A stretch of 25,425 nucleotides of DNA from a virus: IMG/VR virus record IMGVR_UViG_3300048837_001465, positions 1 through 25,425 of that record, one strand, 5' to 3'. The notes beneath the pieces were generated by a model. That model ran no database searches. It was not told the origin of the DNA and saw only the letters and a list, made by a program, of their open reading frames with translations. Both the position numbers and the translations under genes were made by a program. The first letter of the stretch is position 1. Each line of letters begins with the position of its first letter. Of this stretch, positions 2,879-21,582 are shown in pieces.

Positions 2879-4747
2879 TTATAATTTCTTTTCTTCATAA
2901 TAGTGGTTTTCAGTCACTGAAGAAGACTCGTCATTGGAAGAACTGTAACCCATCGTAGCAGAGGCGTTAACAGCATTCATGGCACTCGCTGCAAGCTGTG
3001 CATGGGCGTTCATTATTCCCTCTGTTCCTTTGACCTGCAATTCTTTGAGCGCCACGTAACCGGTTTTTACGGCTTCTATGATTGCAACCCCTTTTGAAAC
3101 ATCAAGTCTTGCCTTCTCTATAGTCGCATTAACTTCTGCGATCTGGGTGGAGTAATGCATTTCTTGGGCTCTGATTTCTGCGGTATAAGCTGTCGCCTCT
3201 GATTCAAAAGCTCTGATTTGGATATCAGACGTCTGCGTCTCAGTTAAAAGCTCAGCCTTGTAACCATCAATTTTTGCGAGATATTCATCAATCTTTTGCT
3301 GGTTTGTTTGAAGCACATTGGCTGCAATGCTCTTTTGAATTTCGATTTCTGCTTTTTTGGCTTCTACTTTAGTTTGATAGGCCCTTACTCTTTCTCCATA
3401 AGCCTCGGCTCTATGCCTCTCACTCTCAACTTGAGTTCCATAAATATCAGCTTTTATTTTTTCAGCTTCAAGCCTGGCAACATAGACTTCCGTCTGCGCT
3501 TTGAATAAATCAATTTTTAATTGTTGAATCTCAACCTTTACTTTTGTTGATTCCATTTCAGTCGCATACAAACTGATCAGGGTGTCAAGAGCCTTAACTT
3601 CTGTGGCATAAATATTAACAAGTGTTTGCTGAACGTCCGCACTAACTCTTACGCCTTCAATTTGAGCTTTATAAATTTCAACAACGGCCAATTCTGATCT
3701 GATCTTCGTCTCAAACACAGAGGCTTCTGTCTGATATTGTTCTAATTTTAATTTTTCCTTAGCAACCAAAGCATTAAAAACTTCGATGGCTTGCAAGGCC
3801 ACTGATTTTGCGGCTTCGAACAATCTGTCTTGTTGTCGCTGGAAAAAATCCATCAGGGATGATTCGATCTGTCTAGCCTGATCTACTGTGAATTGTGTAT
3901 TTTTTTGCGCCAACTCGGCCTGATTGATGATTATTTCTCTATTGAGCTGATCATTTTTTCTGGATATTTCATTGCTTACCTCTAATAACATTGCCGCAAA
4001 AGCCCCGGATGGTAAATGCATCCCTGTGGCCGAAAACTGGTTTTCAACTTCCCTATAAAGGCGTTCGTTTTCTACTCTTTGACGTTCTGTACCACGGGTA
4101 TAAATATCAGCCTCTATTTCAACAGAAAGACCTGTACCGCCATTTTCAATATCGGCTAATATTTTGGTGAATAATGCAACTCTGATATCAGAATTATACG
4201 CACCTTCATAATATTGAAAATTTGTTGGTGTGGAGATGGTCTCAAGTGGAGACAATACAGCGTCAAAAACCGGTAAAGTAATATTAGGGGGATTGGGAAT
4301 TGCGATATCTGTTAATTGCGGTGCGACCGGGAACACCATTTCCGGCTTATCCGGTATTTCAACGGACTCAATATTTGTATTATCTGTCGGGGCGTTTTCA
4401 ATAGAAAACACCGGAGCAGAATATTTGATTTCAGTAAAAGAAACATCTTCGCTTGGGACATCAACAGATATTCCTGGAACAATTGCTAAAACAGGACTGC
4501 TTGGGAATATGTTATCAAATGCAGGAAAAGATTCTAAAGCCGCAGAAAATTTAGGCCTTGCATTATAATCAATAGGCGTTATTTCCGGGGTTTCAATATT
4601 TTCAAGGTCCTCAATACTCGGAACCTCTAATGCCTGCAAAAGGGTTTCAAGTTGGTCCGAATAATTCTTTGCTTCTGCAATTGCATCTTGAGCATATGAT
4701 TCAGCCGAATCAAATCGGCCTGAAACCAATTCGTAAGCATATGTCAT
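2879..4747 (-). CDS. Long coiled-coil tail/virion protein, 622 aa
   Basis: The ATG at 4747 overlaps the upstream stop in a TAATG junction. Residues ~45-180 form an extended Pro-rich region with repeated short units such as IPNPPNITLPV. Residues ~215-555 are almost pure alpha-helix. Within that, F310, F324, Y338, F345, Y359, Y380, Y394, F415, Y422, Y436, Y450 and Y457 are all separated by exact multiples of seven, a continuous heptad register over about 147 residues. A later aromatic set (Y489, Y496, F514, Y521, Y532) is offset by four or eleven residues, as coiled-coil stutters produce. The C-terminus is Ala/Ser-rich and ends EEKKL. The build fits an elongated oligomeric fibre or internal virion rod. 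No specific family is recognised. The neighbours are tail-like proteins on both sides. Confidence 0.72.
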   Translation of the reverse strand: MTYAYELVSGRFDSAESYAQDAIAEAKNYSDQLETLLQALEVPSIEDLENIETPEITPIDYNARPKFSAALESFPAFDNIFPSSPVLAIVPGISVDVPSEDVSFTEIKYSAPVFSIENAPTDNTNIESVEIPDKPEMVFPVAPQLTDIAIPNPPNITLPVFDAVLSPLETISTPTNFQYYEGAYNSDIRVALFTKILADIENGGTGLSVEIEADIYTRGTERQRVENERLYREVENQFSATGMHLPSGAFAAMLLEVSNEISRKNDQLNREIIINQAELAQKNTQFTVDQARQIESSLMDFFQRQQDRLFEAAKSVALQAIEVFNALVAKEKLKLEQYQTEASVFETKIRSELAVVEIYKAQIEGVRVSADVQQTLVNIYATEVKALDTLISLYATEMESTKVKVEIQQLKIDLFKAQTEVYVARLEAEKIKADIYGTQVESERHRAEAYGERVRAYQTKVEAKKAEIEIQKSIAANVLQTNQQKIDEYLAKIDGYKAELLTETQTSDIQIRAFESEATAYTAEIRAQEMHYSTQIAEVNATIEKARLDVSKGVAIIEAVKTGYVALKELQVKGTEGIMNAHAQLAASAMNAVNASATMGYSSSNDESSSVTENHYYEEKKL

Positions 4748-6825
4748 TATGATAAATCCTTATTCTTGGAATCTATTTTTTGTGTTGCATAAACTTTTAA
4801 AAAATCATTTGGCATGTCAGGCTTTAATGTAAAATTTTCATTTAAATAAACATTTAAATTGGTTGTGTCAAATGCCCCAAAACCTCCCCAAGCGCCAGGT
4901 TTTCCACCAAAGACGTTACAAAAATAAGTAATATTATCTTCACCTAAAATTCCCACTATACCAGTTTCTGTAAAATGCTCGAATAAAATATTAGCTCTAT
5001 GCCGAGGAGAATCCATCCAACCTTGTACCACATCTTCCAATGAATATATATTCATAGTACTCACTGCATTATTTTCACTTACATAACAATATGGAATAGG
5101 CCTATTTATAAAGTATCCTGCATCTTTAGCTCTGTCATAATCAATAGATCCATCAGATCCTATATGACCACTAAATTTATTTAAAGCCATATCTTTTGCA
5201 TGTCTAAGAGCTGATTTTTGTAAAATATGATTTGGAATCAATGGAGATAAGCTTCTGTTTGTTCTTTCTAAATTAATTAAATCAAGAAGCTCTTCGTATA
5301 CAGATTCATCAGAATTTAATCTATATTGAATATTAACTCCTACTTGAAATTTAGATGTTCCACTGACATAAGGATTTATACAAAAAGCATCAAAAGCAAT
5401 AATTGCTTTAACTTCAGTATTATCAAATTCATCTGTTTTAGTATAAGAATTTCCAACTCCTATAGTTGACCAAGTATCTGTTCTATTATGAGATAAAGAA
5501 TATTCATTTTCTATTTCACCATAATGATTTTCCCATAATGCCGGTTGCGACCAATCACCATGAATAAATGAATCATATAAATTAATTGTAACAGCTTTCA
5601 TTTGAGCTGAGAAAGGAATATCATCTGTAAAATCTGGACCAAATAATGGGTTGTAAAATAATGCTTCTCTGGTTATATAAGGCAATCCTATTGGCCATGA
5701 ATACCCAGAAGAATTTTCAAACTCTGTTTGCCAAAATTCAATTTTGCAACTTTCAACTTTACTAAAAACATAAGAAGATAGTTTTTCAGTATATTCAGGT
5801 AATTCAATATATTTAAAATTAAATACAGGTTCAATGGAAGGAATATAATTTGCTCCAATATCGTTATCTTCAAAAGCAGCTTGAGTTAAATTACCCCCAG
5901 GAGAATCATAAACATTTCCAACAGATGCTCCGGATATATGTACATTCAATATATTAGAAGCATATCCTTCTGGAGAATCAATAATTGTAACTGTCCAAGT
6001 TTCAGTAATTGAACCTAAAATATCACCAAAAAACTTAGTTTGATCCAAAGCCCCAGAACCATGTTTAGAAATATTTTTTATTTCCGAAGATCCTTTTACA
6101 GTATCAAATGTAAAATAATCTCCAATTTCCCAATCATCACTAATTGAATATAAAGCATTTGGTGCTAATCGAAAATATACACCCATATAATCTATAAGAT
6201 CATCTTCTGAAGATATTATATCATCAATATTCCAAGTGTTTAAATCTTCATTATAAGGAGCAATAGTATTATAATTTTTATTATCAATTACTATCCATGG
6301 GATACCAATAAAAGTATCAGGAATATTTCCATCTTGATCTACTATTTGATATACTTCAGGTCCTGATAAGTTTTCTTCCCAAGATGAAGTATAAGTTAAT
6401 TCAACTGAAGGATGATAGTTTTCAGAAATTAAAAATTCAGAAAGCTCACTAAAGGTTTGTTTTTCTCCAATTATAATATCATTAATAATATCCCAAGCAA
6501 TAGCTTCAGAGCCATCAGCTAAAGATATTATTACGATCAATTCAGATTCATCAATAAAATCTTTAATACTAACAGCTAATGGTTGAGCATAAATTTTACA
6601 TATTTGATTATTAAAAAACTTATTGCATTCAATAAATATTCCATTGCCAAGATTAACTCGTCTGATACCTTGTTGAAGATTTTGAAAACTCATTTCCTGT
6701 TTTAAGATTTCCATTTGGCTGTTCGCAGGCCCAATAAAATTCTTGGCTCTTTTAGTATCGCCGCCACATAAAATTTTATTCGGATTAATTCTTATCAAAG
6801 CTGTGGCTCCAATGGTAATAAGCAA
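4747..6825 (-). CDS. Tail-associated protein with C-terminal CAP/SCP (YkwD-like) domain, 692 aa
   Basis: Residues ~510-641 match the bacterial CAP/SCP fold: an opening helix LINLERTNRSLSPL, a conserved SGHIGSDG with H554, SEN with E584, and the hallmark GWMDSPRHRANIL with H609, followed by TGIVGI and YFCNVFGG. These His and Glu positions correspond to the metal-binding cluster of CAP proteins. The first ~500 residues are beta-rich, acidic and unrecognised, as expected of a tail or adhesin body. The frame opens directly after the upstream TGA, so the first possible start is TTG at 6825; ATG codons at residues 38 and 45 are alternatives with no better ribosome-binding site. The gene is strikingly AT-rich (one sampled 60-base line is 28% GC). 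The CAP call is strong. The role, perhaps contact with cell wall, lipid or a surface ligand, is inferred. Confidence 0.8.
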   Translation of the reverse strand: MLITIGATALIRINPNKILCGGDTKRAKNFIGPANSQMEILKQEMSFQNLQQGIRRVNLGNGIFIECNKFFNNQICKIYAQPLAVSIKDFIDESELIVIISLADGSEAIAWDIINDIIIGEKQTFSELSEFLISENYHPSVELTYTSSWEENLSGPEVYQIVDQDGNIPDTFIGIPWIVIDNKNYNTIAPYNEDLNTWNIDDIISSEDDLIDYMGVYFRLAPNALYSISDDWEIGDYFTFDTVKGSSEIKNISKHGSGALDQTKFFGDILGSITETWTVTIIDSPEGYASNILNVHISGASVGNVYDSPGGNLTQAAFEDNDIGANYIPSIEPVFNFKYIELPEYTEKLSSYVFSKVESCKIEFWQTEFENSSGYSWPIGLPYITREALFYNPLFGPDFTDDIPFSAQMKAVTINLYDSFIHGDWSQPALWENHYGEIENEYSLSHNRTDTWSTIGVGNSYTKTDEFDNTEVKAIIAFDAFCINPYVSGTSKFQVGVNIQYRLNSDESVYEELLDLINLERTNRSLSPLIPNHILQKSALRHAKDMALNKFSGHIGSDGSIDYDRAKDAGYFINRPIPYCYVSENNAVSTMNIYSLEDVVQGWMDSPRHRANILFEHFTETGIVGILGEDNITYFCNVFGGKPGAWGGFGAFDTTNLNVYLNENFTLKPDMPNDFLKVYATQKIDSKNKDLS

Positions 6826-12643: not shown

Positions 12644-13612
12644 CTATGACGGCTCGGTCAGATTGGTATGGCGGCAATGGGCTTTTCTGTTTGTGCATAC
12701 GAGCTGGCCGATCCACCTGGTATTTGCCGTAAGGGTATCCGGTTGGTCCTTGGAATATTCCCACATGGGAGTTGTGAACTTCCATTTGGTATGGGTCTTA
12801 ACCTTGAGGAACCTCAAGTTCAAGGCATCAAGGATTCCGGATGACTGCTTATCGTCTGCAACAACCGGGACACTACCGAACAGCACGTTATCGAAACCGG
12901 CATTAACCAGGGTGGTGTTTGAATATCGTGCCTGGGTGTGTAAGGTCCGCTCAAACCCATCCTTAAGCGCGTCAGTGGTGATATAAATATTCGGCTTGGC
13001 ATCTTTGCTCTGGCCGACCTTGGCTGTTCTGCGAATGGTCTGCATAACCTTAAAGCTGATAGCCTCGGCATCGGTTATCACATTGGCTTTCCATTCTGCC
13101 ATGTCTGCCTCTGTGACATCTCCGTAGGCAGTTGACGTGCTTGTATTGAACAGATTCCCAAGCCCAAGGAAAGCTGAAGAGTCTGCGGCGGATGCGTACA
13201 CATCAGTGCCCATTTGATCCCGGATGGTCTTGTGGATATTGCCAAGCTTGGCATGTACAAGGTCAACCAGTGCTGCCTTACCATTGTTTTGGATTTGCTC
13301 TTCCAGGTCAATGGTGTTTGCCGCGTAATACCCGGCCCACCGGAACAAAGCAGCGTTCAGGATATCTTTCTTGGACTGCGGGATTTTTGTGGTGTTCCCG
13401 TAGCTTCCAACATGGGATTTCGCGTACTCCAGGAAGGTCTTAATTTTCTTACCGCCGTCAACCGTTTCACCTGGCTGTATCAGCGTATCCTGGAACTTAC
13501 TCCCGGACATAAGCATGTAAAGAAGGACGTTGTCATCAAAAATGACATCCTCTGGTTTATTGCTGGCGATATAATCTTCTGTGATTATCGCCAATTGGTC
13601 TGTTAAAGACAT
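12644..13612 (-). CDS. Major capsid protein, 322 aa
   Basis: Start at ATG 13612 after AAGGA. Directly follows the scaffold gene and precedes a small decoration-like gene, the canonical capsid position. Features fitting an HK97-fold coat protein include a helical N-terminus, an E-loop-like segment (GGKKIKTFLEYAKSHVGSYGNTTKIPQSKK), a long spine-helix-like part (ALVDLVHAKLGNIHKTIRDQMG), a central P-domain with PNIYITTDALKDGFERTLHTQARYS, then a beta section (NVLFGSVPVVADDK) and a C-terminal strand pair ending in WIGQLVCTNRKAHCRHTNL. No protease lies upstream, so maturation probably does not involve prohead cleavage encoded here. The fold is inferred; the assignment as coat protein is strong from context. 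Confidence 0.85.
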   Translation of the reverse strand: MSLTDQLAIITEDYIASNKPEDVIFDDNVLLYMLMSGSKFQDTLIQPGETVDGGKKIKTFLEYAKSHVGSYGNTTKIPQSKKDILNAALFRWAGYYAANTIDLEEQIQNNGKAALVDLVHAKLGNIHKTIRDQMGTDVYASAADSSAFLGLGNLFNTSTSTAYGDVTEADMAEWKANVITDAEAISFKVMQTIRRTAKVGQSKDAKPNIYITTDALKDGFERTLHTQARYSNTTLVNAGFDNVLFGSVPVVADDKQSSGILDALNLRFLKVKTHTKWKFTTPMWEYSKDQPDTLTANTRWIGQLVCTNRKAHCRHTNLTEPS

Positions 13613-13639: not shown

Positions 13640-14398
13640 TCAACCCATGGCATCCAAGCGCTGTAAGGTATGAGCTTTAAGCTCAGATGCCGTCATCTTT
13701 TTGTTGGGCCTCCCGATATCTTTTGCTTTGGCCCCTGGTTTTTGCAGGACTTTATCTGTCCTCTCAGCACCCTGGGCTATTTTGTCTATTCGTTTCTGTT
13801 CTTCGGCGGCAGCGGTGGCCTGCTGTGCCTGGTAAGCGAAATATGCTGAAAAATCGTCATGTATACCTGGTAGCGACTTCTTTACAGGATCGAGCTTTCC
13901 AGAATTCATCAACTCTATGAAATCCGGATGTTCATCAAGGAACTGCTGTTGTGCAGCTTCTCTTTGCTGTTTTGCAGTCATTTCTTGGTATTTTGATAAT
14001 GCGTTCCTTGTTGCTGTCTCGGCCGCAAGGTCTGCGGCTTTAGCAAGAGCCTGATCGTATGGGATATCTCCGGCTTCTACACCGCTCACCAACTCTGACA
14101 TCCTTGCGTTGTAATCGAAATCGTCTTTCTCCGCCTCTGTGGCCGGGGTCTTGTCTCTGGCATCTCGCTGCTCCAGCTTATTCAAAAGCAGTGAATTCAT
14201 TTGTTTTATACTGCCCAGCTCGTTCCCCTGCTCCCCGATTCTCTTTTCCAGCTCTTGATAAGAAGTTGCCAATTCGTCAGGGCTTTTGAATTTTCCGAGT
14301 ATCAGCTCGGGTTCGTTATCTGTCTCTTGGGTCTCAACTTCAAGTTCTGGTTCCGGAGGCATCGCACCAGACGGCATTACATCATTGTCTTCAGTCAT
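13640..14398 (-). CDS. Capsid scaffolding protein, 252 aa
   Basis: Start at ATG 14398. The protein is acidic at the N-terminus (PEPELEVETQETDNEPEL), carries the ILGKFKSPDELATSYQELEKRIGE motif that many phage scaffold proteins share (G-K-F-K-S-x-D-E-L-A), then a long charged helical body (TAKQQREAAQQQFLDEHPDF) and a basic C-terminus (KPGAKAKDIGRPNKKMTA). This composition (acidic head, coiled-coil middle, basic coat-binding tail) and placement directly before the coat gene identify it. It would direct procapsid assembly inside the cell and leave before or during DNA packaging. Confidence 0.82.
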   Translation of the reverse strand: MTEDNDVMPSGAMPPEPELEVETQETDNEPELILGKFKSPDELATSYQELEKRIGEQGNELGSIKQMNSLLLNKLEQRDARDKTPATEAEKDDFDYNARMSELVSGVEAGDIPYDQALAKAADLAAETATRNALSKYQEMTAKQQREAAQQQFLDEHPDFIELMNSGKLDPVKKSLPGIHDDFSAYFAYQAQQATAAAEEQKRIDKIAQGAERTDKVLQKPGAKAKDIGRPNKKMTASELKAHTLQRLDAMG

Positions 14399-14467: not shown

Positions 14468-14737
14468 CTATGATCTTTCAATAATCCCGTTGTCCTTAAG
14501 ATAGCGCTTATACTCAGTCCTGGTTTCAATGGGGGCTTCTGATTCTGTGTCTTGCAGACATCCACGAACCTCATCGTTCAACCAGGTCGGTTCATCCCGC
14601 TGTATCTGTGCGGTGATGACCTTTTCACCGATCCGCCCGCATCTTGGGCATGGTACCGGTGTTTTATAATCAGCCAGTTTCAAAAACTGGTCATAACCTG
14701 TTTTGCAATTTTGGCACTTATAGTGGTAAAGTGGCAT
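14468..14737 (-). CDS. FmdB-type zinc-ribbon protein, 89 aa
   Basis: Start at ATG 14737. The opening MPLYHYKCQNCKTGYDQFLK with C8 and C11, followed by VPCPRCGR with C30 and C33, is the FmdB/CxxC-CxxC zinc-ribbon signature. After residue ~40 the sequence is acidic and polar with no further domain. Small FmdB-like proteins occur in many phage head modules, where their role is not known. It sits between the DUF2829 gene and the scaffold gene, two bases after the former's stop. Confidence 0.78.
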   Translation of the reverse strand: MPLYHYKCQNCKTGYDQFLKLADYKTPVPCPRCGRIGEKVITAQIQRDEPTWLNDEVRGCLQDTESEAPIETRTEYKRYLKDNGIIERS

Positions 14738-14738
14738 A

Positions 14739-15245
14739 TCACACGACCGTCCAGTCTTCTTCTATGCAATCAGAAACAGACGGCTGCCACACCTGGTGGG
14801 AACCATCCGCACACCGCAATTGAAAATATGGCCGGCACTTGAACAAGTCACCTTCCTGCATTCCAAAAGCTTTAGCGGTTTGAGCATTGCATGGGATGCC
14901 GTCAGGATACCCCTTCTGATAAACGACAAACATGCCCTTTCCGTTCCACCCGTCCCTGGCAACTTTATTCCCTAACTTCATGGCCTCAATAGCCATGCCG
15001 AAAGGCATGCCGGTCATGGGCTTGTATGCGACATCAAAAACATCAGCAGGGGACCAGGAGATATAATGGCATCCACCTTCAAGTTCACCATCAAAGTTGC
15101 CATGCGCATCCGGGTAGCCGACCAGATGCCCTGGATCATCAGGATTTTCATTTTTCGGGATATCCCAGCCCCTGTGTTCGTTGTAATCCCCCCGGTTCAT
15201 GGCCCGGGCCTTAATCACTTTCGTTCCAATGTACTTTTCCATCAT
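14739..15245 (-). CDS. DUF2829 (Tad2-like) protein with an N-terminal accessory domain, 168 aa; candidate anti-Thoeris
   Basis: The ATG at 15245 overlaps the portal stop (ATGA). Residues ~80-168 carry the DUF2829 pattern: PFGMAIEAMKLGNKVARDGWNGKGMFVVYQKG, then RPYFQLRCADG and a closing CIEEDWTVV. Proteins of this family include Tad2 of phage SPO1, a tetrameric sponge that binds the cyclic ADP-ribose isomer signal of Thoeris and so blocks the defence. Residues 1-~78 form a separate domain (IKARAMNRGDYNEHRGWDIP, GCHYISWSPADVFDVAYKP) often seen fused in front of DUF2829 in my recollection. Placement inside the head operon is odd for an early anti-defence protein. Family assignment is firm; the anti-Thoeris role is inference. 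Confidence 0.8.
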   Translation of the reverse strand: MMEKYIGTKVIKARAMNRGDYNEHRGWDIPKNENPDDPGHLVGYPDAHGNFDGELEGGCHYISWSPADVFDVAYKPMTGMPFGMAIEAMKLGNKVARDGWNGKGMFVVYQKGYPDGIPCNAQTAKAFGMQEGDLFKCRPYFQLRCADGSHQVWQPSVSDCIEEDWTVV

Positions 15246-17068
15246 GCTGCTCCTTGTTTCGCCCTTGGTACTCCAGGTTGCTGACGACCGACGTCTGGCT
15301 GCTGCTGGCGGCCACCAGTCTGCGCCCTGGTCCCGTTCTGTGGCTCAAGTAAATATTGTTTAAGGCTAACTGCTTCTTCTTCCGTCATTCCAGCCTGAAC
15401 CAAAATCTGAATAGCCTGATCAAGTTGACCTTCACCCACCCGTTCAATGATCTGCTTCCAGCCTGGGAAATTTAGCGTCTCCAGCAGTGCCTGCCGGTCA
15501 ATAGCCTTGTCGCGGTACAGGGCCATTGCCTGTTCTTGTTGCTGAATGGATGTCCTCGCTACTGTGGACCCTGACTCAACCATGTAATTGAACCTTCTGC
15601 CGGCCATGGTCACTCCTTGCAAAGCAACAGTGGTTCCCCTAATTTCCAGTGTTTCAACCTCAGTTGCAAAGTTCAAAAGCCCTGAGATAGCCCACCGGCC
15701 ACGCTCCCGGGCAATGCTTTCCATTGCCCGGATTTTGTGCTGGATCAAAACCGAGTTACGTTCCTGCAGGGCTACAATCGCCGACGCGGCTGTAACGCCA
15801 GTTGGCTGGACCCCCCGATCAGCATCTTCAATCTGATAAATCCGATCATGGAAACCTGTAAGGATATCCAAGACCTGGAAAAGGGCTGCTGGAGGGTTAG
15901 GTACCGGAACAAACTCTATCCTGGCATTGGGTCGAGTTGGCATCAAAACCAACCCTGGCTTATTGTTGATCATGTTCTTGGTAATACCGCACCCGGCATC
16001 CACCCTAAGTGGGGGGAACATGGCGAAATTCGCCCATGCCACCATTCGGCTTACCATCTCATCAATGCGCTTGTTGAGATCCCCAACCTGCTCGCCTGCG
16101 GAAAAACCCCAGATACTGGTGGAATCCTCGTAACTGTTAACGTAGGAGAACGGATATCTGCCCCAGGCGTAAGTTTCCTTGATGGCCTCCTGATCAATCT
16201 CCAAGTTAATATTTGGGTTTTCCATATCTGCCAAAACCACACGCCCACGGTTTGCAACGAGGACTACCCGGATGCCATCCGGCATGCTTTCGTCTCTAAA
16301 CCAACATTCAACTACCAGGCCTTCCCCTTTTCCGCGGCTGGTCCGGCCTGTTACCTCAGACGTGTTTTTATACTGCTGTTCAACAATACCGGATTCACGA
16401 TTCATCATCGTGTTATTTGGCCTGGCTTCTTCCCTGTCTTCTCTGCCAAGAATATTCCTAACATCCTCCGCGTCAATTGTTCCTGGTTTTTGATTGAACA
16501 TTTTTTCTATCGCATAAACATCCATGGCATAAGCGTGGATCACATAAGGAAGGTCCTGTATATCCCGGGTATACCCAGGAGCCGGAAAAAAGGAATAGGC
16601 ATCCAGGACTATAGAAATCGGATTCTTGCCAGCGATTGACCAACCGTGCTTTTCCACGGTGATCCCGTAGATCTCATTATTCTGACAACTGGTAGCAAGA
16701 CTTGCCTGTTGTTCTGATTCATGCCAGTATTTCCTCACCCTGGTGGTTAATGCCTCATCAGCCCCATCATTAACCCCGTCCATATCCACGACTTCAACAA
16801 CCGGGTTTTTTGCAGTAATGTTGGCCACGGTCCTCTGAATATTGGCAAAATACAGATTGATGGACAGCCGATTCGGCTTGTTGATACCCTTGTACCCCCA
16901 GTGATCCCCACGAAACATGCGGTAGTTGGCCACCCACCTGTCCATCAGGCCCAGCCGTTCTTTCTCTGCATAGGCATCCTCGAACAGGCCCCAAATCCAA
17001 AGGCCCAATTCCTTATGGCCTTTTGGCGGCGGACTTTCTATGCTGTATTCTTCGATGGATTTAACCAA
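15242..17068 (-). CDS. Portal protein, 608 aa
   Basis: The only start near the N-terminus is TTG at 17068, overlapping the previous gene's stop, with GGAAGGA upstream. The sequence opens with a helical domain (WIWGLFEDAYAEKERLGLMDRWVANYRMFRGDHWG), contains INLYFANIQRTVANITAKNPVVEV, a typical portal early region, a wing-like beta section (DGIRVVLVANRGRVVLADMENP) and the late helical stem/crown (GVTAASAIVALQERNSVLIQHKIRAMESIARERGRW). The C-terminus is a Gln-rich disordered tail (GGRQQQPDVGRQQPG). At 608 aa it is of usual portal length for podoviruses. It follows a head-fibre and two small genes and precedes scaffold and coat, the standard order. Confidence 0.85.
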   Translation of the reverse strand: MVKSIEEYSIESPPPKGHKELGLWIWGLFEDAYAEKERLGLMDRWVANYRMFRGDHWGYKGINKPNRLSINLYFANIQRTVANITAKNPVVEVVDMDGVNDGADEALTTRVRKYWHESEQQASLATSCQNNEIYGITVEKHGWSIAGKNPISIVLDAYSFFPAPGYTRDIQDLPYVIHAYAMDVYAIEKMFNQKPGTIDAEDVRNILGREDREEARPNNTMMNRESGIVEQQYKNTSEVTGRTSRGKGEGLVVECWFRDESMPDGIRVVLVANRGRVVLADMENPNINLEIDQEAIKETYAWGRYPFSYVNSYEDSTSIWGFSAGEQVGDLNKRIDEMVSRMVAWANFAMFPPLRVDAGCGITKNMINNKPGLVLMPTRPNARIEFVPVPNPPAALFQVLDILTGFHDRIYQIEDADRGVQPTGVTAASAIVALQERNSVLIQHKIRAMESIARERGRWAISGLLNFATEVETLEIRGTTVALQGVTMAGRRFNYMVESGSTVARTSIQQQEQAMALYRDKAIDRQALLETLNFPGWKQIIERVGEGQLDQAIQILVQAGMTEEEAVSLKQYLLEPQNGTRAQTGGRQQQPDVGRQQPGVPRAKQGAA

Positions 17069-21073: not shown

Positions 21074-21490
21074 CTAACAACTAAGCTTTCTGAGTATTGT
21101 GGTTTTCTTTTCTTTATCTTTAATCCAGTTAAATCTTATAGATGCTTCCTTGTGAACAGATATCCACTCCCTAACACATGGATGAATAGTAAACCATTCA
21201 CCGCGTTTTTTAGAGTACCTAAACTTTCTGTGCAACTTGTCTTCTAAGTCTTTAACCCTAAATAAATCGACTGGGAAGAAATACCACATGCTTAAATCAT
21301 GTGGAGTTCCAATCTGCAATTGTGCAAGTCTTTGTTGCGGATTATGAGAAAACCCTATTTTAACAGAATTCCTCCAGTCTTGGGTTTTGTGGACATGGCA
21401 AACTATAAAATAAATATAAGAAATAGGCCCATCTTCTATGACCCTAAACTCATTTATATTATCTAAGAATATTTTTTTTGGCTTTGACAT
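21074..21490 (-). CDS. GIY-YIG-related (T5orf172/MUG113-type) protein, 138 aa
   Basis: The ATG at 21490 follows AACAGGAG at good spacing; an upstream TTG at 21580 lies too close to the promoter and is rejected. The segment PISYIYFIVCHVHKTQDWRNSVKIGFSHNPQQRLAQLQIGTPHDLSM has the IYFI start, the VKIGxSxxPxxRLxxLQxGxP core and later DLEDKLHRKFRYSKKRGEWF of the GIY-YIG superfamily's T5orf172-like branch. Such proteins in phages may be nucleases or nucleic-acid-processing enzymes; catalytic function is not proven here. The gene diverges from the small rightward operon and reads toward the late promoter. It may act early. Confidence 0.75.
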   Translation of the reverse strand: MSKPKKIFLDNINEFRVIEDGPISYIYFIVCHVHKTQDWRNSVKIGFSHNPQQRLAQLQIGTPHDLSMWYFFPVDLFRVKDLEDKLHRKFRYSKKRGEWFTIHPCVREWISVHKEASIRFNWIKDKEKKTTILRKLSC

Positions 21491-21582
21491 AACAAGTCTC
21501 CTGTTGACTTTCCTGATTTGGTGAATGTGGGAACTCCGGTCAGGATTCCGGTATTCGAGTGGCCGCTCTATCCCACGCAACT

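Follow-up and report, generated by a model that had tools for sequence, protein, structure and literature searches.

Phage Tad2 proteins are already known as sponges of nucleotide immune signals. The Tad2 protein of phage SPO1 (gp34.65) binds gcADPR, and ModTad2, the anti-Thoeris 2 protein of a Myroides odoratus prophage (PDB 9eib and 8v3e), binds His-ADPR (PMC13299392). Both are stand-alone proteins, with ModTad2 being 88 residues long, and the SPO1 gene lies among small genes downstream of the replication and sigma-factor genes, outside the structural operon. According to their PDB titles, SptTad2 was solved with cGG (8wjd), and AcrIIA7/HgmTad2 with cADPR and cGG. One review has the gcADPR pocket built from the loops beta1-beta2 and beta3-beta4, strand beta4, the loop beta4-alpha3 and helix alpha3 of adjacent protomers, and holds a long insertion between beta2 and beta5 responsible for cyclic dinucleotide binding (PMC12043709). 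The Acb2/Tad1 hairpin (PF24729) represents another sponge fold. A 2026 study reported that the RyR-domain proteins of phages (RyDEP/RyR, PF02026), whose catalytic or sponge domain is unrelated to Tad2, either degrade 2'/3'cADPR or sequester it, and the counter-defence proteins known so far are mostly early to middle (PMC13232231).

The window, meaning the whole stretch of 25,425 nucleotides of viral DNA analysed here, contains at 14739..15245 on the minus strand a 168-residue open reading frame that joins a Tad2-like domain to a separate N-terminal module (N-module). An earlier note, made from the letters alone, had proposed this frame as a candidate Tad2-family sponge with a separate domain in front; the frame and its motifs PFGMAIEAMK, VARDGWNGKGMF and EDWTVV are all present. 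The minus strand reads, in order, TerS, TerL, four small genes, portal, the Tad2-like gene, a Zn ribbon, a probable scaffold and the major capsid protein, which bears out the portal and scaffold setting given by the note. The portal gene (15242..17068, minus strand), the upstream flank, matches PHROG 156 and 1216, and its SU10_portal match of 25.2 bits is slightly below the cut-off of 30. The downstream flank is an FmdB-like Zn-ribbon gene (14468..14737, minus strand; Zn_ribbon_8, PF09723, 38.3 bits), assigned also by synteny. The probable scaffold (13640..14398, minus strand) gave no significant family match and is placed by its position before the capsid gene and by synteny, while the capsid gene (12644..13612, minus strand) matches the major head protein family PHROG 9953 with 98.2 bits and starts 1.1 kb downstream of the Tad2-like stop.

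The junction at the upstream flank, read from the sequence at 15240..15255 (minus strand), is tight. The portal stop TGA (15244-15242) overlaps the ATGATG start of the Tad2-like gene, so that the two frames share four bases (ATGA), and an AAGGAG motif (15255-15250) lies within the 3' end of the portal gene. The second ATG at 15242 may be the true start, giving a protein of 167 residues (MEKYIG...), since it is better spaced from the AAGGAG motif and homologues begin likewise. At the other end, the Zn-ribbon gene begins one base past the end of the frame. Three other observations concern the surroundings. Among isolates, the portal comes nearest to that of Methanosarcina virus MetMV (40% over 95%) and TerL is closest to Marinitoga viruses (51%), so the window is a mosaic whose head genes are related to those of a virus of an archaeon. 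A T5orf172/MUG113 (GIY-YIG-type) gene lies upstream of the terminase genes at 21074-21580 (minus strand). In the virion/tail region, the 692-residue protein encoded at 4747-6825 (minus strand) includes, over residues 514-624, a domain of the CAP (cysteine-rich secretory protein) family (PF00188, 41.4 bits).

The Tad2-like domain spans residues 80-168 (14742..15008, minus strand) and matches PF11195 with 78.7 bits (E 4.7e-22) against a curated cut-off of 25, covering all of the profile (1-73 of 73). A phmmer search of the PDB sequences returned ModTad2 at the top (69 bits), followed by SptTad2, HgmTad2/AcrIIA7 and SPO1 Tad2. An AlphaFold2 monomer model of the whole protein, built from 49 sequences, reached a mean pLDDT of 91. 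Its 24 Foldseek matches in the PDB at E<=0.001 are every one a Tad2, with TM-scores of 0.61-0.86 by target length, and the top match is 9eib, the ModTad2 structure bound to His-ADPR (E 1.5e-7). ModTad2 is therefore the best match both by sequence, at 44% identity over 86 residues with identical GWNGKGMF and PSVSD loops, and by fold. SPO1 Tad2 shares the PF11195 domain, the fold and the invariants of the pocket loops, but is only 39% identical over 80 residues.

Twenty residues of the window protein are identical in ModTad2, SPO1 Tad2, SptTad2 and HgmTad2: F82, G83, A85, E87, K90, G92, V95, R97, G99, W100, N101, G102, K103, M105, F106, W153, S156, D159, D164 and W165. They are concentrated at 97-106 (R.GWNGK.MF) and 153-165 (W..S..D....DW), most of them in pocket loops. 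In the model, the predicted beta1-beta2 loop comprises residues 98-105, and residues 153-161 run from the last part of a strand through a loop into a helix. These positions fit the published pocket description (PMC12043709), which places the conserved residues in the right pocket elements, as judged by loop and not by contact. Within the signal-binding loops, R97, GWNGK at 99-103, M105, F106, W153, S156 and D159 all agree with the four solved proteins. The profile match, the modelled fold and the retained loop residues agree with the note in making a nucleotide immune-signal sponge the likely function.

The two-domain architecture itself is common, since PHROG 872, a family with no assigned function, covers the entire protein (residues 1-168, 162.7 bits), and 95 of the 372 phage records found by tblastn cover at least 80% of the query. 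The same architecture is widespread, occurring among others in N4-like, P22-like, Vibrio, Klebsiella and Pseudomonas phages. The window gene is diverged within this family, being 38-44% identical to its best isolate relatives, and an NCBIfam search with the two-domain protein gave no match.

The N-module (residues 1-77; 15015..15245, minus strand; YIGTK...GYLVEY...SWSP..VF..AY) has no Pfam match, is modelled as a distinct domain and forms a family of its own across 142 phage records, which confirms the separate front domain seen in the note. It is predicted to be beta-rich, with 60-77 residues and a model pLDDT of 88. Residues G7, K9, G39, Y61, W64, S65, P66 and Y74 are invariant in an alignment of 62 modules; G7, K9, G39, Y61, W64 and P66 are invariant both in this set and in one of 64 sequences that includes the window protein. 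A profile search of the PDB found nothing credible (best E 0.44), Foldseek of the module model against the PDB gave no fold match (best E 2.3), and a BFVD structure search matched solely other phage proteins.

What distinguishes this module is the variety of its partners. A first scan of IMG/VR gave 64 non-redundant N-module proteins, in which the attached domain was Tad2-like in 47, crAss001_48 in seven, Phage_gp49_66 in four and Acb2_Tad1_hairpin in three. A second scan, with modules from the other fusions as queries, recovered 61 non-redundant proteins; a custom profile found Tad2 in 38 of them, and the remaining 23 included 12 with gp49_66, four with crAss001_48 and one with an Acb2/Tad1 hairpin below cut-off. 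These proportions are biased through sampling by similarity to the query, which leaves the variety of partners unaffected. The clearest hairpin fusion scores 51.1 bits against a cut-off of 27 (L125:3157-3642), and two others lie near or under that cut-off (L096:5001-5591, 25.5 bits; L235:1501-2064, 22.4 bits); the hairpin is absent from the window protein. In Yersinia phage TG1 (KP202158, 126132-126632, minus strand), one frame combines the N-module (E 3.5e-10) with an RyR domain (PF02026, 41.3 bits, cut-off 27.4); the text of the paper on RyR proteins (PMC13232231), when searched, did not mention the module. Three unrelated kinds of signal-disarming domain, Tad2, Acb2/Tad1 and RyR, thus bear the same module, which is a mobile accessory domain common to several classes of signal-disabling phage proteins.

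Further arrangements were seen in passing. One protein (L128:5001-5723) contains three domains, N-module, crAss001_48 and Tad2. In Vibrio phage 1.205.O (L056:4217-5208), a crAss001_48+Tad2 gene adjoins one that joins the N-module to an unnamed HLPPHLQEVS domain, so the modules reshuffle between neighbouring genes; an assignment of the HLPPHLQEVS part to Acb2 was dropped, having neither Pfam nor PDB support. A protein of Carjivirus communis annotated as N4_gp49/Sf6_gp66 family (BK010471, 27507-27680) also matches the module (E 5e-4), which extends it to crAss-like phages. The module probably gives the domain it is attached to a second capacity to bind, either a ligand or a partner, though we advance this with little weight. 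The note had suggested that the front domain may modify ligand choice or counter a different signal system; what the analysis adds is its recurrence on other proteins that counter such signals. It is a more tentative thought that the N-module is a general counter-defence domain, binding a second signal or a common TIR/CBASS partner, and that crAss001_48 and gp49_66 are signal-countering as well; this we hold as possible rather than probable.

The position of the gene between portal and Zn ribbon was studied in portal relatives, comprising 53 loci from IMG/VR and six loci from GTDB genomes (Desulfobacterota, Cloacimonadota, one archaeal and related MAGs). Nearly all of those relatives with contigs reaching there retain the Zn-ribbon gene (14468-14737 in the window) between portal and scaffold, and so it seems a genuine part of the head operon. 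The slot itself is occupied by a two-domain gene in the window, L002, L003 and L006 (the same as L155/L156). It is empty in twelve loci (L149, L157-L162 and L164-L168), where portals 54-79% identical to that of the window are separated from the Zn ribbon by 3-9 nt. Four of the empty junctions were inspected at sequence level (L149, L157, L159 and L167). The L159 junction has the same AAGGAG and TGATG stop-start overlap as the window, but there it starts the Zn-ribbon gene, and those of L167 and L157 have purine-rich motifs much like AAGGAG.

Other genes take the same place. A Desulfobacterium MAG (L148) has an N-module fused to Phage_gp49_66 (82.7 bits) together with a helical protein, and at 7939-8388 of L163 lies a gene whose product resembles nucleoside 2-deoxyribosyltransferases (PF15891, 29.6 bits against a cut-off of 30) and may be a further nucleotide-acting counter-defence protein. 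In L006, the two-domain gene is the most divergent of the operon, at about 45-53% identity to the window, with portal and capsid at 83%, Zn ribbon at 84% and scaffold at 64%. In the Tad2 domain, the L006 protein shares 65% identity with L063 and just 44% with the window, and a tree constrained to unite it with the window, L002 and L003 is worse by 57 log units (AU p=0.032). We prefer to explain the L006 gene as a replacement by a Tad2 of another lineage. Accelerated divergence, the other explanation considered for its 45% identity, is disfavoured by the grouping with L063, although p=0.032 is moderate and the hypothesis was post hoc. Between the window and L002, dS is 0.077 for the Tad2-like gene against 0.30 for the portal, 0.59 for the Zn ribbon and 0.85 for TerL, which indicates a recent exchange. 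With the slot empty in some relatives and filled by other genes in others, the low dS and the swapped lineage in L006, the Tad2-like gene is dispensable, swappable cargo that was cleanly inserted, and not a conserved virion component.

The earlier note had called a late position unexpected for a counter-defence gene. The position is as described, yet it is less of an anomaly than it appeared, because the gene recurs beside structural genes elsewhere and the slot is empty in close relatives. In L083 an N-module+Tad2 gene lies between the portal (PHROG 1216) and the scaffold and capsid (capsid PHROG 267), and in L105 such a gene or its equivalent does so with one small gene intervening; it is near the portal in L015 and L121, and between TerL and portal in L075. 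In Pseudomonas phage phiAH14a the gene follows the portal and head morphogenesis genes, and in Vibrio phage 1.205.O the two domains belong to neighbouring genes, with the terminase-portal region on one side and the capsid gene on the other. Elsewhere it stands beside lysis genes or before TerS (Kapi1, Louie and Y3), or near replication genes (IME11 and 41E34.2). A tally of the neighbours of about 50 N-module+Tad2 loci has no single dominant context, with portal or terminase genes in some and ParB, nuclease or gp49_66-type genes in others. The idea that the gene is always in a structural operon was therefore rejected; such operons are a recurrent place for it but not the only one.

The late position becomes understandable once the trigger of Thoeris is considered: major capsid proteins activate the Thoeris cyclases of staphylococci and streptococci (PMC12578639), and the gene sits in the capsid operon. 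A sponge made from the capsid's own transcript would be present as the trigger appears. A promoter and terminator scan was uninformative on timing, the promoter signal being no higher than in shuffles. We consider it probable, from the sequence and the model together, that the window encodes a late-expressed Tad2 counter-defence sponge carried as swappable cargo, with a mobile accessory N-module. The C-terminal Tad2 domain, modelled here as a monomer, would most likely tetramerise and sequester a nucleotide immune signal, which would be of the ADP-ribose type (His-ADPR or 2'/3'cADPR, for instance) and the product of a host TIR protein, and the Thoeris effector would then stay off. The gene, set as cargo between the portal and Zn-ribbon genes, would be co-transcribed with the capsid gene, and the sponge would be made while the capsid protein, a known Thoeris trigger, accumulates.

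The choice of ligand separates this proposal from its nearest rival, in which the protein would be a sponge for CBASS cyclic dinucleotides instead of ADPR-type Thoeris signals. Some Tad2 proteins bind such molecules, as the cGG structures of SptTad2 and AcrIIA7/HgmTad2 attest, and the N-module is fused to Acb2-type hairpins too. However, the residues counted between the GWNGKGMF loop and the conserved tryptophan that follows, across beta2-beta5, number 46 in the window, nearer to the 41 of the ADPR sponges ModTad2 and SPO1 Tad2 than to the 53 of SptTad2 and 59 of HgmTad2, and the following loop, QPSVSD, resembles TPSVSD of ModTad2 and VPSQTD of SPO1, not LASQTD of SptTad2 and HgmTad2. The window protein thus has neither the long insertion nor the loop of the cyclic-dinucleotide type. 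The candidate ligand leans to the ADPR type on these two features, with a cyclic dinucleotide less favoured, and we regard the CBASS reading as unlikely. The phylogeny gives no reading of the ligand. A tree of 88 Tad2 domains puts the window beside L002, L003, L004 and Vibrio phage 1.205.O and joins stand-alone domains to this group next, the resulting clade including none of the four solved Tad2; ModTad2 falls in another clade with moderate support, and a joint clade of window and ModTad2 is neither supported nor rejected (AU p=0.40). The identical PSVSD loop was considered as a sign that the window protein and ModTad2 have one ligand class, a suggestion that stays tentative beside these differing clades and the same p=0.40. 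An AcrIIA7-type anti-CRISPR role would draw on the inclusion of AcrIIA7 in DUF2829 (PDB 8kbi and 9kzr) and on a homologue in Escherichia phage Louie annotated 'anti-CRISPR protein', but PF11195 alone is in common, there is no link to Cas9 here, and the AcrIIA7 structures hold cADPR and cGG, so the label is not a structurally supported activity; we give this role hardly any credence.

A role in the virion or its assembly, with the Tad2 fold being incidental, would suit the place between portal and scaffold, the 4-nt coupling to the portal and the similar placement in other phages, and localisation to virions had been raised by the note. This is not supported. A structural protein would be constantly present in the virion cluster of its lineage, but relatives with portals 54-79% identical lack the gene, unrelated genes are swapped in (a different one in L163), and the family elsewhere adjoins lysis, terminase or replication genes, making a structural role very improbable. 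Somewhat less remote, and still quite doubtful, is the reading in which the N-module does the principal work and its Tad2 partner is secondary or degenerate. The module does occur alone (L082 and L062), it has many partners, and its aromatic and polar residues K9, N22, R25, W27, Y61 and W64 are strongly conserved. Nevertheless, the window protein retains its Tad2 pocket residues intact, and Tad2 domains that stand alone are reportedly active.

On the host side, the phage probably belongs to uncultured anaerobic microbes. ThsB_TIR (PF08937) is found in three of the five searched MAGs with portal relatives, whose contigs may be mis-binned. In a Syntrophaceae MAG, where binning may likewise be wrong, three ThsB-like TIR genes adjoin a SLOG-patatin phospholipase protein (L209:4293-7916). 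This layout is Thoeris-like, and the pairing with the effector may be unusual.

In the literature searched there was no report of a cargo slot between portal and Zn ribbon, or of an N-module common to signal-countering proteins. What appears to be new is the link that an unnamed module makes between three or more unrelated classes of phage protein acting against nucleotide immune signals; through it, gp49_66 (also in crAssphage) and crAss001_48, large families with no assigned function, become candidates for the same role. Apparently new as well is a precisely bounded cargo slot, which lies within one lineage's capsid operon and holds different Tad2 lineages or other proteins. Such a slot offers a natural set of counter-defence genes whose expression would be expected to accompany that of the capsid, which triggers Thoeris.
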